The notes under the pieces: generated by a model | Databases searched by the model: none | Told to the model about the DNA's origin: nothing | The model's input: only the letters and a program-made list of their open reading frames with translations | Part shown: in pieces, positions 30,311 through 38,812 of the stretch | How positions within the stretch are numbered: the first letter of the stretch is position 1 | Layout of the letters: the number at the start of each line of letters is the position of its first letter | DNA from: Aquipuribacter sp. SD81 | Lineage (GTDB): Bacteria; Actinomycetota; Actinomycetes; Actinomycetales; JBBAYJ01 | Direction of reading: 5' to 3' | Assembly (NCBI RefSeq): GCF_037153975.1 | Contig: NZ_JBBAYJ010000012.1 | Span: forward strand, 1-64,000 | DNA length: 64,000 bases | Made by a program: the position numbers and the translations under genes

Positions 30311-30637
30311 GACGGCTCCTTCCGGGGGCAGGCGGCAGGATGCTGATCACTGGCCTATCGGGGAGCCGCGGGCCGGGCCACCCAGGACGCGCGAACCGGA
30401 CGATTCGTTACCCGTTCTTTACCCTCCGCCCCCCTCTGCCCGCCCGCGCCGGTGGACCGGACCTGGCCCCGTGAGGCAGGATCGGCACCGTCGGGACGCA
30501 GCCGTCCGACACCGTGCGACGGAGCATGCGCCCCCTCGCCGGCCGACGACGGCTCCCGGCGGGAGGCCCGGGACCCCGGGCCGCCTTCACGACGGATCGT
30601 CCGGCACGTACCTGCCGGTGAAGGGAATGGCACAGCC
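30311..30637. promoter_or_regulatory. Divergent control region between the peptide importer and the UgpC-type ATPase
   Basis: No gene is seen in these 327 bp. The most notable element is GTTACCC at 30407-30413 and TTTACCC at 30418-30424, an 11-bp-spaced pair in an AT-richer patch. It could be a weak PHO-type half-site pair or simply promoter sequence. The remainder is GC-rich without a clear operator. Confidence 0.4.
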
Positions 30638-33358: not shown

Positions 33359-34030
33359 CTAGCCAGGCGGCGGGGCCACCGTGAGGCGGACCTCGCCGCC
33401 GGTGCGGGCCGCCGTCTCGACGGTCCGCAGCTGCAGCAGGGCAGGGTTGTCCGCGAGCATGCGACCCGCGTTCTGCAGGGCCCGGAGCGCCGCCACCTCG
33501 CCGCGGGCGCGCTCGAGCTGGGCGCGGCCCTCGAGCTGCGCGGTCGCGAGCGCCGTCACCGCCCGCCGCACCTCGCCGGGGACGACGACGTCGCGGACGA
33601 CGACTCCCTCGACCGCCACGCCGACGGCCTCGGCCGCGGCGCGGACCGCGGGCGCGACCGTCTCCCCGGCGCGGGCGCGGCCGGCGAGCAGCTCCTCGAG
33701 CGCGGCCGACGCCGCCCAGTCGCGCAGCGCGACCTGCAGGGCGAGGCGGACCTCGCCGAGCGGGTCGGCGGACACGTCGAGCCAGCGCTCGGCGTCCGCG
33801 ACACGCCACGTGAGCGCGGCCGAGAGACCGACGCCCGGGACGTCGGCCGCCGCGACCTCCTGGCCGGTGAGGAGCAGCGTCGCCCGGCGGGTGTCGACCC
33901 GCTCGACCTCGCGGCGCCACCAGCGCCACGCCATCGGCAGGCGGTGCCGGCCGGGCCCGAGGACGGCGGTGGTGCGCCCGTCGACACGGACGACGGCGAC
34001 GGTGCCGGGCGAGACGGTGGTCGTGGTCAT
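33359..34030 (-). CDS. Slipin/SPFH (band 7) domain protein
   Basis: The 223-residue SPFH-domain protein opens with VSPGTVAVVRVDGRTTAVLGPGRHRL, followed by VDTRRATLLLTGQEVAAADVPGV and LQVALRDWAASAALEELLAG, then EGVVVRDVVVPGEV. Unlike typical slipins it has no N-terminal hydrophobic hairpin, so membrane attachment is unclear. A short coiled helical segment (about 160-195) follows the domain. ATG 34030 follows GAGGAGG. The 5' leader contains a tRNA-like structure (34164-34229). Confidence 0.85.
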   Translation of the reverse strand: MTTTTVSPGTVAVVRVDGRTTAVLGPGRHRLPMAWRWWRREVERVDTRRATLLLTGQEVAAADVPGVGLSAALTWRVADAERWLDVSADPLGEVRLALQVALRDWAASAALEELLAGRARAGETVAPAVRAAAEAVGVAVEGVVVRDVVVPGEVRRAVTALATAQLEGRAQLERARGEVAALRALQNAGRMLADNPALLQLRTVETAARTGGEVRLTVAPPPG

Positions 34031-34163
34031 GGTGGCCTCCTCCCGGGGGCGCTCGGTGGTCGTGGTGGACGGGCTGGACGGGCCGCCGGTCGCGCCCACC
34101 GGCACCGACGGGCACCCGCACGGGTGCGGGCACGCAGGTCGACCCCGGCTGCCGGGCGCGGCC

Positions 34164-34229
34164 GACGGCCCTGAGGGAGTCGAACCCAGGGTGTTGACAG
34201 CACCTGCCACCAGAACGGCACGTCCCCAG
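34164..34229 (-). ncRNA. tRNA-like element in the slipin gene leader
   Basis: The minus strand folds into successive tRNA-like arms. A D-like arm TGCC/GGCA has the loop GTTCTGGT. An anticodon-like arm GGTG/CACC has the 7-nt loop CTGTCAA (would-be anticodon GUC). A T-like arm GGG/CCC has the perfect T-loop TTCGACT. The acceptor helix is poor: CTGGGGA/CCCTCAG would share the T-stem bases, and GACG-GCC/GGCCGTC needs a bulged T. It is therefore not a normal tRNA-Asp. It ends about 133 nt before the slipin ATG on the same strand. Nothing else in 34031-34344 looks like a gene. Confidence 0.5.
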
Positions 34230-34344
34230 GTGGAGCGCGGGACACCGGTCGGCTACGCCGTGGCGCCGCTCCCGAGGACGGCCGTGACGGTACGGGGCCG
34301 CCCCCGGGGCGCGCGACGCCTTTTCGCCACGGGTCGCCGAAGGG

Positions 34345-35706
34345 TCAGCAGCAGGCGGCCACGGCCGCTTCGCGCTCGGCGCTGCGACCGTGCGAGGAAC
34401 CGGTCACGAAGCCGCGGTCGGCCGAGGCCACACCGACCGAGCACACGCCTGTCTCCGGCAGGTCGAGCCGCACGTCGTCGGCCGCGGCGAGGTCCCCGGC
34501 GAGGGCTGCAGCCACGGAGCGGACCTGCTCGTAGCCGGTCGCGAGCAGGAACGTCGGCGCGCGGCCGTAGCTCTTGGCCCCGACGACGTAGAAGCCCGGC
34601 TCCGGGTGCGCGAGCAGGGCCGCCCCGTGCGGGGGCACCGTGCCGCAGGAGTGGGTCTCCGGGTCGACCAGCGGCGCGAGGCCCCGCGGGGCCTCCAGCC
34701 CGGGGTCGAGGTCGAGGCGCAGCTCGCGCAGCATGTCGAGGTCGGGCCGGAAGCCGGTGGCCGCGACGACGACGTCGGCGGCCAGGGTCCGCTCGTCGCC
34801 GTCACCCCCTGTACCGGTGAGCAGCACGCCACCGTCGCCCGCACGGACCCGCGTCGTGCGGAAGCCCGTCACGAGCTCGACGGCACCGGCCTGCACGGCC
34901 CGGCGCAGCCGCTCGCCCAGCAGGCCGCGCGCCGGCAGGCCGTCCCGGTCGCCGCCGCCGTAGACGCGCTCGGGCGAGGACCTGCGGACGGCCCACGTGA
35001 CCGTCGTCCCGGGCACCTCGCGGCCCAGTCGGGCGAGCTCGAGCAGGGTCGTGACGGCCGAGTGGCCCGCCCCCACGACCACGACGCGACGTCCGGCGAG
35101 GCGGGCACGGTCCCGCCCGAGGACGTCCGGCAGGGGACCGAGGACGGCGTCGCCCGCCTCGGCCTCGCCGAGCGCCGGGAGCCCGGACGTGCCGAGCGGG
35201 TTGGGACGGCTCCACGTGCCCGTCGCGTCGATGACGGCCCGCGCCCGCAGGTCCACCACCTGGCCGTCGCGACGCCGGGCCCGGACGACGAACGGCTGCC
35301 CGGCCCGGTCGGCGACGTGCGTCTTGTCGAGGCCCTCACGGGCGACGGCGAGGACGCGGTGGCCCGTGAGGACGCACGGCCGCAGCGCCGGGGTGTCGGC
35401 GAGCGGGGCGAGGTAGCGGCCGACGAGCTCCGCGCCGCTCGGCAGGGCGGTCGGCCTCGGCGCTTGCCAGCCGGTCGCGGCGAGGAGCCGCGCGGCCGCG
35501 GCGTCGACGTCGTAGCGCCAGGGGGAGAACAGCTGCACGTGCGACCACTGCCGCACCGAGGCGGCGACGTCGTCGCCGGCCTCCAGCACCAGCGGTTCCA
35601 GCCCCCGCTCGAGCAGGTGCGCGGCGGCGGCCAGGCCGACGGGGCCGGCCCCCAGCACGAGGACGGGCAGGTCGGCGGTGCGTGCGGTGGTGTCGGGGCT
35701 GCTCAT
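34345..35706 (-). CDS. FAD-dependent flavoprotein of the arsenic cluster (ArsO-like)
   Basis: The 453-residue protein has two Rossmann motifs, VLGAGPVGLAAAAHLL near 17-32 and VVVGAGHSAVTTLLEL near 190-205. VVVAATGFRPD and VVGAKSYGRAPTFLLATGYEQ are also present. This matches flavin-containing monooxygenase-like proteins encoded in ars operons (ArsO). The reaction is unproven. It ends with a CC pair that might bind metalloid. ATG 35706 is divergent from arsR across the ArsR operator. Confidence 0.8.
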   Translation of the reverse strand: MSSPDTTARTADLPVLVLGAGPVGLAAAAHLLERGLEPLVLEAGDDVAASVRQWSHVQLFSPWRYDVDAAAARLLAATGWQAPRPTALPSGAELVGRYLAPLADTPALRPCVLTGHRVLAVAREGLDKTHVADRAGQPFVVRARRRDGQVVDLRARAVIDATGTWSRPNPLGTSGLPALGEAEAGDAVLGPLPDVLGRDRARLAGRRVVVVGAGHSAVTTLLELARLGREVPGTTVTWAVRRSSPERVYGGGDRDGLPARGLLGERLRRAVQAGAVELVTGFRTTRVRAGDGGVLLTGTGGDGDERTLAADVVVAATGFRPDLDMLRELRLDLDPGLEAPRGLAPLVDPETHSCGTVPPHGAALLAHPEPGFYVVGAKSYGRAPTFLLATGYEQVRSVAAALAGDLAAADDVRLDLPETGVCSVGVASADRGFVTGSSHGRSAEREAAVAACC

Positions 35707-35725
35707 GGCGTGACGGAACCACACG

Positions 35726-35759
35726 CATCGATGTACGTCAATATTGACGAGCGTCGATG
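35726..35759. promoter_or_regulatory. ArsR operator between the ArsO-like and arsR genes
   Basis: A perfect 12-bp palindrome GTCAATATTGAC (35737-35748) is flanked by inverted arms CATCGA (35726-35731) and TCGATG (35754-35759). The AT-rich centre resembles known ArsR/SmtB-type sites. It lies 20 bp before both starts and should control both directions. Confidence 0.8.
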
Positions 35760-35780
35760 CCTTTCGGGTACCGTGCCGCC

Positions 35781-36140
35781 ATGCCCGCCTCCTCGGCCAC
35801 CGCCCGCCAGACGTCGCCGCTCGCGTGCTGCGCCCCGCTGGTCCGCGCGCCGCTCGACGCCGGGACCGCGGACACCGTCGCGCGGACGCTCAAGGCCGTC
35901 GCCGACCCCGCCCGGCTCCGGCTGCTGTCGCTGGTCGCCGCGTCGGAGGGACAGGAGGCGTGCGTGTGCGACCTGGTGGACGCGGTCGACCTGAGCCAGC
36001 CGACGGTCTCGCACCACCTCAAGGTCCTCGTCGAGGCGGGTCTGCTGGTCCGCGAGAAGCGCGGCGTGTGGGCGTGGTTCGGGCTGGTGCCCGAGGCTCT
36101 CGACGACCTCGCGCGGGTGCTGGCGGCACCCGCGACCTGA
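35781..36140 (+). CDS. arsR: ArsR-family metalloid-responsive repressor
   Basis: The 119-residue winged helix has the ArsR/SmtB core KAVADPARLRLLSLVAA and SQPTVSHHLKVLVEAGLL. Two thiol sites are visible: an N-terminal Cys16-Cys17 pair (LACCAPL), as in corynebacterial ArsR, and Cys61-x-Cys63 (ACVCDL) at the classical E. coli-type position. Binding of As(III) would release the operator at 35726-35759. ATG 35781 is used; a start at 35757 would lie inside the operator. Confidence 0.93.
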   Translation: MPASSATARQTSPLACCAPLVRAPLDAGTADTVARTLKAVADPARLRLLSLVAASEGQEACVCDLVDAVDLSQPTVSHHLKVLVEAGLLVREKRGVWAWFGLVPEALDDLARVLAAPAT

Positions 36141-36152
36141 GCCAGGGCCCCC

Positions 36153-36839
36153 TCAGGCGGCAGGCACCCCGATATCCTCGAGCAGCCGGCGGACGCGGCG
36201 CTCGATCTCGTCCCGGAGCGGGCGCACCTCGTCGACGGCCTTGCCCGCGGGGTCCTCGAGCACCCACTCCTCGTAACGCTTGCCCGGGAAGACCGGGCAC
36301 GCGTCCCCGCAGCCCATGGTGATGACGACGTCCGCCGCGCGCACGGTCTCGTCGGTCCACGGCTTGGGGAACTCGCCCGAGATGTCGACGCCGCGCTCGC
36401 GCATGGCCTGCACGGCGGCGGGGTTGACCACCGTCCCGGGCTCCGAGCCGCCGGACCACGCCACCGCACGGTCTCCCGCGAGCTGCTGGAAGAAGCCCAT
36501 GGCCATCTGCGACCGACCGGCGTTGTGCGTGCAGAGGAAGAGGACGGTGGGCAGGCCGTCGTCGTGGCGACCCTCGATCCGCGCCAGCGCGCGCAGCCGC
36601 TGCCGCGCGAAACGCTCGGCCATCAGGGGCAGGAACCGCGCGACGGTGGCGCGCTCGGCGAACTGGTCGTAGCTGGACACGAGGAACCGCTCGATGGTCC
36701 CGGCGCCGTAGACGCCCGCGAAGTCGTCCGCGAGCCGGGTCGCGGCGGTCCGCAGCGCGACCTGCTGGTCGAGGTCGATCCCGGCCCGACGGTGCAGCCG
36801 CGAGAGCGTCGCCCCCGAGTCGTGGTGGGTGTCGGTCAT
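36153..36839 (-). CDS. arsC: Arsenate reductase (LMW-phosphatase type) with three-helix N-terminal domain
   Basis: The 228-residue protein has an N-terminal helical domain (about 15-85), matching the three-helix-bundle dimerisation domain found in actinobacterial ArsCs. The LMW-phosphatase fold follows, with P-loop CTHNAGRS (Cys103 to Arg109), MGCGDACPVFPGKRYEEW and the DPAG acid loop. It probably reduces arsenate via mycothiol/mycoredoxin in the cytoplasm. ATG 36839 follows GAGGAG and lies 12 bp after the ArsR-ArsC fusion gene, so the two form an operon. Confidence 0.9.
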   Translation of the reverse strand: MTDTHHDSGATLSRLHRRAGIDLDQQVALRTAATRLADDFAGVYGAGTIERFLVSSYDQFAERATVARFLPLMAERFARQRLRALARIEGRHDDGLPTVLFLCTHNAGRSQMAMGFFQQLAGDRAVAWSGGSEPGTVVNPAAVQAMRERGVDISGEFPKPWTDETVRAADVVITMGCGDACPVFPGKRYEEWVLEDPAGKAVDEVRPLRDEIERRVRRLLEDIGVPAA

Positions 36840-36851
36840 GGTGCGGGCTCC

Positions 36852-37538
36852 TCAGGTGGGTGGGTCCGCGAGGGCCCGGCCGAGCCGGTCGACGCGGGCG
36901 GTGATGTCGAGGAGCGCGTCCTCGAAGGCGTCGTCGGTGCCGACCCGGACGGGGTCCGGCACCGACCAGTGCAGGTCGACGGGTCGTGCGGCGGCGAGCG
37001 AGGTCTCGTAGGCGCCGTCGCAGACCGCGACCACGAGGTCGTCCGCCCGCACGACGTCGTCGACGTGCGCCGGAGTGCGACCGGTGAGGTCGAGGCCGTG
37101 CCGGGCGGCCGCCGCGACCGCCCCCGGGTGCACCTCCGGTGCGGGCTCGGTGCCGGCGCTCGCCGCCGCCAGCCGCGAGGCACGCGTGAAGGCGACCGCG
37201 GCGAGGTGGGAGCGCGCGGAGCTGTGGGTGCAGACGAACACGACCCGCGGGGCGCTGCGCGCGGTGGGCACCGCGAGCGAGGCGTCGAGGAGCGTCACGT
37301 ACGTGCGACGCCGGTCGCCCTCGGAGCGGCGCCGGGCCACGATTCCGGCCCCCTCGAGCACCTTGAGGTGGTGCGCGAGCAGGTTGCCGGGCACACCGAG
37401 CGCCGCCGCGAGCTCGCCCGGCGCGAGGTCACCGAGGGCGAGCAGGTCGACGGCATGCAGCCGCGTCGGGTCGGCGAGCGCGGCGTGCACCGCGGCCCGC
37501 CGCCGCAGGCCCGCCGCCGCGCTGTCGTCGCCACCCAC
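36852..37538 (-). CDS. ArsR-type regulator fused to an LMW-phosphatase (ArsC-like) domain
   Basis: The 228-residue fusion has a winged helix at about 10-88 (HAALADPTRLHAVDLLALGD, NLLAHHLKVLEGAGIVARRR). An LMW-phosphatase domain follows at about 97-225, with P-loop CTHSSARS (Cys103 to Arg109) and an acid-loop Asp in SVPDPVRV. The HTH part lacks the Cys pairs of the neighbouring ArsR, so any sensing may go through the phosphatase domain. GTG 37538 opens VGGDDSAAAG. A much longer upstream reading overlaps the aquaporin gene and is rejected. Confidence 0.88.
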   Translation of the reverse strand: MGGDDSAAAGLRRRAAVHAALADPTRLHAVDLLALGDLAPGELAAALGVPGNLLAHHLKVLEGAGIVARRRSEGDRRRTYVTLLDASLAVPTARSAPRVVFVCTHSSARSHLAAVAFTRASRLAAASAGTEPAPEVHPGAVAAAARHGLDLTGRTPAHVDDVVRADDLVVAVCDGAYETSLAAARPVDLHWSVPDPVRVGTDDAFEDALLDITARVDRLGRALADPPT

Positions 37539-37551
37539 GCGCCCAGCCTGA

Positions 37552-37586
37552 CGCTCAGCCGGTATTGAGTCAAGACTTGTTGAGCG
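37552..37586. promoter_or_regulatory. Operator-like repeats between the fusion and aquaporin genes
   Basis: CGCTCA (37552-37557) and TGAGCG (37581-37586) are exact inverted arms. Inside lies TTGAGTCAA (37565-37573), an odd-centred palindrome in an AT-richer stretch with TTGTTGAG beside it. It separates the divergent fusion and aquaporin genes and is a plausible site for the fusion's HTH domain. Confidence 0.55.
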
Positions 37587-37625
37587 AAATTGGACAGCCG
37601 TCCGTTCCTGCGGCAGCATCCGACC

Positions 37626-38381
37626 GTGCCCCTCGCGCCGGTCGACGACCTGTCCCCCGACGCCGTCGCCGGACGCCGACGGACGCTGCTGCGCAAGGCG
37701 CTCGCCGAGCTCGTGGGCACCGCGCTGCTCCTCGCGACCGTCGTCGGCTCGGGCGTCGCGGCCACCCGACTGACCCCCGACGACGTCGGCGCGCAGCTGC
37801 TGTACAACTCCGTCGCCACGGGCGCGGTCCTCACCGCCCTCATCCTCGCCCTCGGGCCCGTGTCGGCGGCGTTCAACCCGGTGGTGACGCTCGTCGAGCG
37901 AGCGCTCGGCGCCCTCGACAACCGCAGCGCAGCGGCGCTCGTCGCGGCGCAGTGCCTCGGCGGCGCCGGCGGCGTCGTGCTCGCCAACCTCATGTTCGAG
38001 CTGCCGGCCGTGTCGACCGCGACCACCGTCCGGTCCGGTCCGGGCATGTGGCTCGCCGAGGTCGTCGCCACCTTCGGGCTCGTCCTCGTGGTGTTCGGCG
38101 TCGTCCGCACGGGTCAGACCCGGCACGTCGCGGTCGCCGTCGGCGCGTACATCACCGCCGCGTACTGGTTCACCAGCTCCACGAGCTTCGCCAACCCCGC
38201 CGTCACGCTGGCCCGCACCCTCTCGGACACCTTCGCCGGCATCGCCCCGGCCTCGGTCCCGCCGTTCGTCCTCGCCCAGCTCGCCGGCGGCGCCGTCGCG
38301 CTGCTCGTCGTCCGCGTGCTCCACCCCGACCCCCGGGCGGCCGCGCGCGCGGTCGTCCACCACGCCGAGGAGGCCCCGTGA
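37626..38381 (+). CDS. Aquaporin/aquaglyceroporin (arsenic-cluster type)
   Basis: The 251-residue MIP channel has six transmembrane helices and two half-helix loops, NPV at 84-86 (AAFNPVVTL) and NPA at 190-192 (FANPAVTLAR). In the AqpS paradigm of Sinorhizobium, such a channel in an ars operon lets arsenite produced by ArsC flow out down its gradient. GTG 37626 is used, since the TTG at 37590 is unlikely. The GTGA overlap with the next arsC indicates coupling of reduction and exit. Confidence 0.9.
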   Translation: MPLAPVDDLSPDAVAGRRRTLLRKALAELVGTALLLATVVGSGVAATRLTPDDVGAQLLYNSVATGAVLTALILALGPVSAAFNPVVTLVERALGALDNRSAAALVAAQCLGGAGGVVLANLMFELPAVSTATTVRSGPGMWLAEVVATFGLVLVVFGVVRTGQTRHVAVAVGAYITAAYWFTSSTSFANPAVTLARTLSDTFAGIAPASVPPFVLAQLAGGAVALLVVRVLHPDPRAAARAVVHHAEEAP

Positions 38382-38812
38382 CCCACCCGCCCACCGACCG
38401 GCCCACCGACCGGCCCCGCCCGTCCGTCCTGTTCGCCTGCGTCCACAACGGCGGGCGCTCGCTCGCCGCGAAGGTGCTGACCGAGCACCACGCGGCCGGC
38501 GCCGTCGAGGTCCGCTCGGCCGGCTCGCAGCCCGGGACCGACCTCAACCCCGTCGTGGTCCAGGTCCTGCACGAGCGGGGCCTGTCGACCGAGGGCGAGC
38601 GACCGAGCCTGCTGACCCGCGAGGGCGTGGAGGCCGCGGACGTCGTCGTGACGATGGGCTGCGGGGAGGCGTGCCCGTTCGTGCCGGGGAAGCGGTACGA
38701 GGACTGGGAGCTCACCGACCCCAAGGGCCGGGACCTCGAGACGGTCCGGGGGATCGTCGAGGAGATCGACCGTCGGGTGCAGCGGCTCGTCGCCGAGCTC
38801 ACCGCCGGCTGA
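38378..38812 (+). CDS. arsC: Arsenate reductase (LMW-phosphatase type)
   Basis: The 144-residue single-domain enzyme has P-loop CVHNGGRS (Cys21 to Arg27), MGCGEACPFVPGKRYEDW and acid loop LTDPKG. The CGxAC pair is shared with the other cluster ArsC (36153) and resembles corynebacterial mycothiol-dependent ArsC. It starts with GTG overlapping the aquaporin stop. It is followed by a long inverted repeat that probably terminates transcription. Confidence 0.92.
   Translation: MTHPPTDRPTDRPRPSVLFACVHNGGRSLAAKVLTEHHAAGAVEVRSAGSQPGTDLNPVVVQVLHERGLSTEGERPSLLTREGVEAADVVVTMGCGEACPFVPGKRYEDWELTDPKGRDLETVRGIVEEIDRRVQRLVAELTAG

Follow-up and report, generated by a model that had tools for sequence, protein, structure and literature searches.

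A conserved structured RNA with a tRNA T-arm, linked by sequence comparison to one SPFH subfamily of actinobacteria

Related tRNA-like RNAs and the slipin locus

The accessible part of PMC9142559 describes the yjdF riboswitch, a bacterial messenger RNA (mRNA) leader that folds like a transfer RNA (tRNA) and has loops resembling the D-loop and the T-loop, and reports that tRNA-like leaders raised translation in vitro. YrlA-type Y RNAs, according to the available portion of PMC7790460, are bacterial RNAs with a tRNA-like domain that are genetically tied to one protein, Rsr/Ro60. Dense rows of tRNA genes together with other non-coding RNA (ncRNA) occur in actinobacteria in the Mycobacterium tRNA array units (PMC5966550, accessible text), and the soluble subfamilies SPFH8 and SPFH9, whose members have no predicted membrane segment, appear in the available part of PMC2636767. 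Here we describe a structured RNA element of ~180 nucleotides (nt) on the minus strand of a 64,000-nt stretch of Aquipuribacter sp. SD81 DNA (contig NZ_JBBAYJ010000012.1, positions 1 to 64,000; hereafter the window), where it lies upstream of a gene for a slipin, a member of the SPFH family.

The closest functional precedent for this element is yjdF. It was reported in Firmicutes, however (PMC2864571, accessible part), and the slipin element differs further in its long rod, its association with one SPFH gene family and the lack of an evident pairing between T-arm and ribosome-binding site; the yjdF family (RF01764) gave no Rfam match in the window or in 12 relatives. Of the tRNA-like domain that marks YrlA-type RNAs, the T-arm is clear in the slipin element, and the partner here would be an SPFH protein. 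Array units resemble the loci of two relatives, G797 and G808, whereas most slipin loci have no array, and slipin and SPFH are mentioned 0 times in the main text of PMC5966550 as available. Like SPFH8 and SPFH9, the slipin seems to lack a membrane segment, and no RNA partner is described for them in the accessible text of PMC2636767 (in which 'rna' occurs 0 times).

The literature searched, which excluded most subscription papers, held no tRNA-like RNA linked to a slipin or SPFH gene, and the element is apparently undescribed. Burroughs and Aravind reportedly placed Band-7 genes in RNA-repair operons in 2016, and an earlier mention of the link is possible there. SPFH proteins (stomatins, prohibitins, flotillins) have been studied as membrane and protein scaffolds; to our knowledge, RNA is not established as a regulator or partner of any of them, and a T-arm RNA tied to one SPFH subfamily across the phylum points to such a role.

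The original prediction described three tRNA-like arms at 34164-34229, and we found them on the minus strand at those positions, including the T-loop TTCGACT (34184-34178) and a 7-nt loop, CTGTCAA. It had also remarked on the absence of a clean acceptor helix, and tRNA programs indeed find none, and had put the distance to the slipin ATG at about 133 nt; the interval ends 134 nt before the ATG at 34030. The element extends past this interval on both sides, from ~34080 to ~34260, lies on the same strand as the slipin and has its 3′ end 50 nt before the slipin start.

Conservation and covariation upstream of one slipin subfamily

Relatives of the slipin were collected from 24 of 396 genomes of the order (E value 1e-20 or better), from 17 further genomes of the class, with the subfamily limit set at the gap between E values of 6.8e-36 and 4.4e-30, from three more in the phylum and from another three in the order of one of those, giving 47 subfamily genomes in total, whose leaders were read on the sense strand. 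The exact T-loop motif GTTCRANTC is present upstream in 42 of these 47 (20/24 in the order set, 17/17 in the class, 2/3 in the phylum and 3/3 in the added order), with about 155 to 295 nt separating it from the protein match; four leaders carry variants and one has none. A named carrier, Quadrisphaera sp. INWT6 (L058), has the same leader sequence as G142 over the compared stretch and is not counted separately. Before other slipins, the motif occurs in 0 of 33 distinct valid control leaders (0/12, 0/18 valid leaders from 19 windows, and 0/4, with one gene common to the first and last set).

By comparison of these leaders, the element reads 5′ to 3′ as P1, P2 with a conserved loop, a D-like CTGG hairpin, an anticodon-like hairpin (P3), the T-arm (P4) and a rod with an internal loop (P5). 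Its parts and the slipin signals are as follows, from the 5′ side:

34287..34292, minus strand: candidate -10-like hexamer TACCGT, 27 nt before P1, read from aligned leaders
34250..34260, minus strand: P1 hairpin CGGC-GTA-GCCG, read by eye across leaders, unscored
34229..34246, minus strand: P2 hairpin GGTG-TCCCGCGCTC-CACC, stem read by eye, unscored
34205..34220, minus strand: D-like hairpin TGCC-GTTCTGGT-GGCA with CTGG in the loop, read from the sequence, unscored
34190..34204, minus strand: P3, anticodon-like hairpin GGTG-CTGTCAA-CACC, from covariation
34173..34189, minus strand: P4, tRNA T-arm CTGGG-TTCGACT-CCCTC, from the conserved loop and stem pairing
34080..34171, minus strand: P5 rod, a long bulged hairpin of ~90 nt, from folding and own-partner pairing
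34036..34041, minus strand: AGGAGG, likely ribosome-binding site of the slipin, read from the sequence
33359..34030, minus strand: slipin/SPFH gene, 223 amino acids, Pfam Band_7 (E 1.3e-23), stomatin-like predicted fold

The T-arm can be aligned without gaps across 41 leaders, 38 of which have the T-loop UUCRANU, and the five stem pairs, counted from the loop, are formed in 41, 41, 41, 34 and 11 of the 41. Covariation was assessed in two alignments. In the structure-free MAFFT alignment of 11 leaders (A2), 92.7% of cells are paired, 12 cells carry double changes and the covariation score is 0.345, compared with 0.104 in shuffles (reached in 0/500). A larger alignment (A3) comprises the 29 of 38 loci that aligned at a stricter limit, including the 11 seed leaders, and leans towards the structure because it was fitted to it; here P3 and the T-arm together have 96.4% of cells paired, double changes at six of seven pairs (41 cells) and a score of 0.543, as against 0.141 in shuffles (0/500) and at most 0.148 with slid partners. 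P3 taken alone shows double changes at all four of its pairs, with 93.4% of cells paired. The arms first noticed in SD81 are thus conserved upstream of slipin genes in relatives, and the compensatory changes that the original prediction had proposed to look for are found in P3 and the T-arm.

A covariance model built from A2 placed 17 of 29 other subfamily leaders above every tRNA gene in the searched set (26.0 to 57.4 versus at most 22.1 bits); seven others were found in place at a lower score and five were not found. With a second model, made from A3, we searched 394 genomes of the class. All 12 hits of at least 44 bits lie at subfamily slipins, and since all 12 belong to the model's own alignment, their recovery is by construction; no hit of at least 44 bits fell away from a slipin subfamily gene in these genomes. 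The next hit, at 36.9 bits (L154), sits inside an open reading frame; hits of 28-37 bits away from slipins, of which this is the best and the one checked for gene overlap, were set aside. With 13 of the 18 subfamily genomes in the set recovered, the model evidently misses diverged copies. Outside the class, where the A3 model gave 34.0 (L199), 21.5 (L198), 17.8 (L174) and 16.8 bits (L173) and only the T-arm in L200, we base the claim on position and on the T-arm and rod as read from the leaders.

The rod is supported by its folding and by the fit of its own strands. Across 41 leaders, the median fold z of the 130 nt that follow the T-arm is -3.25, versus -0.46 in 40 upstream stretches. We also tried the left strand of each rod against the right-hand regions from 38 other leaders; the partner from its own leader was best in 18 of 39 cases (about 1 by chance) and among the best three in 27 (about 3 by chance), with a poor fit in L093, L053, L061 and L091. 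An internal loop, about CCUGC opposite CC, recurs in the rod across leaders. The visibly AT-richer leader of G1105 (L200) has retained the rod with its internal loop and a T-arm of five pairs, with a fold z of -2.51 from T-arm to gene; P3 is apparently absent from it.

TGG or a similar string recurs at the D-like hairpin in many leaders on a variable stem. Only ~0 to 2 nt lie between P3 and the T-arm, where a tRNA has its variable loop; the P3 loop is often seven nt (e.g. CTGTCAA, CTCTCAA). Because the loop at this anticodon position varies in both sequence and length across leaders, decoding is unlikely to matter. Mimicry of tRNA, as judged from these alignments, is clear for the T-arm and suggestive elsewhere, and is incomplete, as there is no acceptor helix and the anticodon position lacks conservation. 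The P2 loop is the best-conserved stretch outside the T-arm in the MAFFT alignment.

Linkage of the element to the slipin was also examined through the predicted proteins of 38 regions, namely 36 wider loci, L058 and part of the window. Of these regions, 36 contain the slipin and 12 a cluster of generic ATPases, with every other cluster in at most four. A DNA similarity search with the element against its own genome and 38 others returned short matches only, with no recognisable homologue. As the slipin is recurrent, other neighbours are not widely common and no comparable copy was found elsewhere, the RNA and the slipin look like a unit.

Leader, partner RNA or tRNA remnant

Tests on the single sequence gave little sign of an RNA element. 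The search for a tRNA or known family that the original prediction had suggested, run with ARAGORN and Rfam, came back empty: ARAGORN calls no tRNA at 34164-34229 (its sole call in the window is a tRNA-Thr elsewhere), Rfam 15 has no gathering match at the element, and its permissive mode gives only mascRNA at 14.1 bits (E 4.8). Judged as a tRNA (RF00005), the element has the T-arm, with the UUCRANU loop and kept stem pairing, but does not score as one in ARAGORN or the Rfam model and lacks a seven-pair acceptor helix, the strand after the T-arm pairing inside the rod. With no tRNA call, no acceptor helix and a weak fold, the window alone would suit a chance resemblance or the remains of a tRNA gene, and an ordinary or chance feature was the view taken from these tests, dropped after the leaders were compared. 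A decayed copy of tRNA-Asp, which the original prediction had named as a finding that would count against it, does not fit: the alignment of the genome's tRNA-Asp(GTC) with the element scores 12, a chance level reached by 13 of 100 shuffles. This comparison covered 30 of the genome's 45 tRNA matches, three others of which beat all 100 shuffles (best tRNA-Arg, score 16), the common part being the T-arm. The same RNA before the same type of gene in many actinobacteria, with compensatory changes, therefore indicates a real RNA element and not a broken tRNA gene; in our view covariation and motif conservation already refute decay or chance, which we regard as barely credible.

The structure of the slipin was predicted from a 12-sequence alignment (predicted local distance difference test, pLDDT, 88.7; predicted template modelling score, pTM, 0.67). 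The model matches stomatin best, then other SPFH assemblies, with the major vault protein at rank 46, and both the Band_7 domain and the stomatin-like fold place the protein in SPFH/Band 7. Its SPFH strands begin at residue 3, no N-terminal membrane segment is visible, and we read the predicted protein as soluble.

In G797, a relative outside the class, a row of 12 tRNA genes, spaced by 2 to 8 nt with one gap of 30, leads straight into the element and then the slipin (L195:10197-11164); these genes make up 12 of the 47 tRNA matches (30.9 to 69.9 bits in the row) of that 82% complete genome. G808, of the same genus and likewise outside the class, has five tRNA genes before the element on a short contig (L196:22-417). 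Within the stretches read, no tRNA row was seen in G1000, G1088, G1021 or G1105. Such rows hint at a connection with tRNA biology.

Together, these comparisons of leaders show that a structured RNA with a genuine tRNA T-arm, an anticodon-like hairpin and a rod is conserved and linked to one SPFH subfamily. The best reading is an RNA that would serve the slipin as leader or partner and act through tRNA mimicry. More specifically, we give a probability of roughly 0.45 to the ~180-nt RNA being the 5′ leader of the slipin, with tRNA mimicry controlling slipin amount. We infer the transcription, processing and mechanism of the element as follows. Element and slipin would share one transcript, with the element as the 5′ leader; the CTGG of the D-like hairpin may contact the T-loop to form a tRNA-like elbow; the slipin itself or a tRNA-binding protein would bind this mimic, and binding would set the amount of slipin. 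Autoregulation by the slipin is our first choice of mechanism. So read, the element would be a new and large example of a bacterial leader that mimics tRNA, and a directly testable RNA-gene pair.

Several observations weigh against this interpretation. The rod of the SD81 window itself has a fold z of only -0.58, the 5′ domain gives no folding signal (median z -0.15), and the 66-nt interval folds slightly less stably than the shuffle mean (z +0.75, with 148 of 200 shuffles matching or exceeding its stability). No conserved terminator or ribosome-binding-site pairing was found in the leaders, which therefore offer no evident switch. Outside the class, only L199 reaches more than a weak model score. 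The T-loop sequence drifts in three leaders near Quadrisphaera (L050, L059 and L060), where the GAGG/CCTC stem is kept with the loops TTCGAGA, CTCGACT and CTCAGGA, a pattern in which the stem may count for more than the loop; the fourth variant, L174, has TGCGAAT, and the L075 leader holds nothing recognisable as the element. Finally, we know of no RNA binding by this slipin.

The main rival to a cis-acting leader is a separate stable ncRNA, cut from the transcript like a tRNA, that would join the slipin in an RNA-protein particle and act in trans, by a logic like that of Y RNA and Ro60/Rsr. A large conserved fold with no evident switch, the restriction to one protein family and the position of the element directly after the tRNA rows of G797 and G808, like one more unit, would all suit it, as would the rings and cages formed by SPFH proteins and the match of the slipin model to the major vault protein. 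The element nevertheless always lies on the slipin strand, close to the slipin start, and the search of the 394 class genomes detected no copy elsewhere; we hold a separate RNA to be possible, if rather unlikely. No Ro60/Rsr gene recurs among the slipin neighbours in the general cluster survey of the 38 regions, which did not include a TROVE profile search. A bolder version, in which an SPFH ring or cage and the tRNA-like RNA form a new particle that stores, guards or repairs tRNAs, echoing the vault and Ro60-Y RNA by analogy, we consider unlikely; if it were true, the tRNA rows of G797 and G808 would be a form of the module still carrying its tRNAs.

As the original prediction had suggested with RNase P, the T-arm might instead be a processing or stability signal that brings a tRNA enzyme (RNase P, TruB or a different one) to the slipin transcript. 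The tRNA-type loop UUCRANU would serve this, but there is no acceptor helix and the T-stem often has only four pairs, and we think such a signal quite unlikely. A ligand-sensing riboswitch with a tRNA-like fold would explain the recurrent T-loop and D-like CTGG segments and has a precedent in yjdF, itself such a leader in the accessible reports. Riboswitches commonly serve several genes of one pathway, however; this element precedes one gene family only in the genomes searched, matches no Rfam family in the window or the 12 relatives and shows no conserved expression platform across leaders, making a riboswitch improbable. The slipin leader reading remains the one we favour.

Minor features and neighbouring genes

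Upstream of P1, the pattern TA[GC][GC][CGA]T, chosen post hoc, occurs in 17 of 38 leaders versus one of 38 control stretches, and a sigma-70 consensus scan of the window gave no promoter at the -10-like hexamer. A conserved CAG motif before P1 was unconvincing (21/38 leaders versus 13/38 controls) and was not retained. A similar CCUGCG-like string is frequent in both the P2 loop (34229-34246) and the rod internal loop (34080-34171); judging from the strings themselves, these are perhaps two sites for one binding partner.

A tRNA or transfer-messenger RNA (tmRNA) gene lies within ~1.5 kilobases of the slipin in five of 35 loci. The tmRNA gene is close to the slipin in L106, L125, L127 and L058 (Quadrisphaera-type genomes and G721). 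A tmRNA/SmpB link was considered and not adopted, because this proximity is not general: ssrA is near the slipin in only three of 35 loci, with smpB identified by Pfam in two (L106 and L125). Spread by a mobile element was likewise set aside, the searches giving one 50-residue match on one plasmid record and none in phages; this match is to the slipin C-terminus (54% identity) in Methylobacterium bullatum (L172), outside the phylum.

In the window, the genes upstream of the slipin (34345-38812) begin with a flavin oxidoreductase (Pfam), beyond which open reading frames read like an ArsR regulator, a low-molecular-weight phosphatase/arsenate reductase and an aquaporin; from these readings the group is perhaps an arsenic cluster. 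Elsewhere in the window, a known motif, the msiK leader RNA, is found at 30576-30632 (Rfam RF01747, 56.9 bits).
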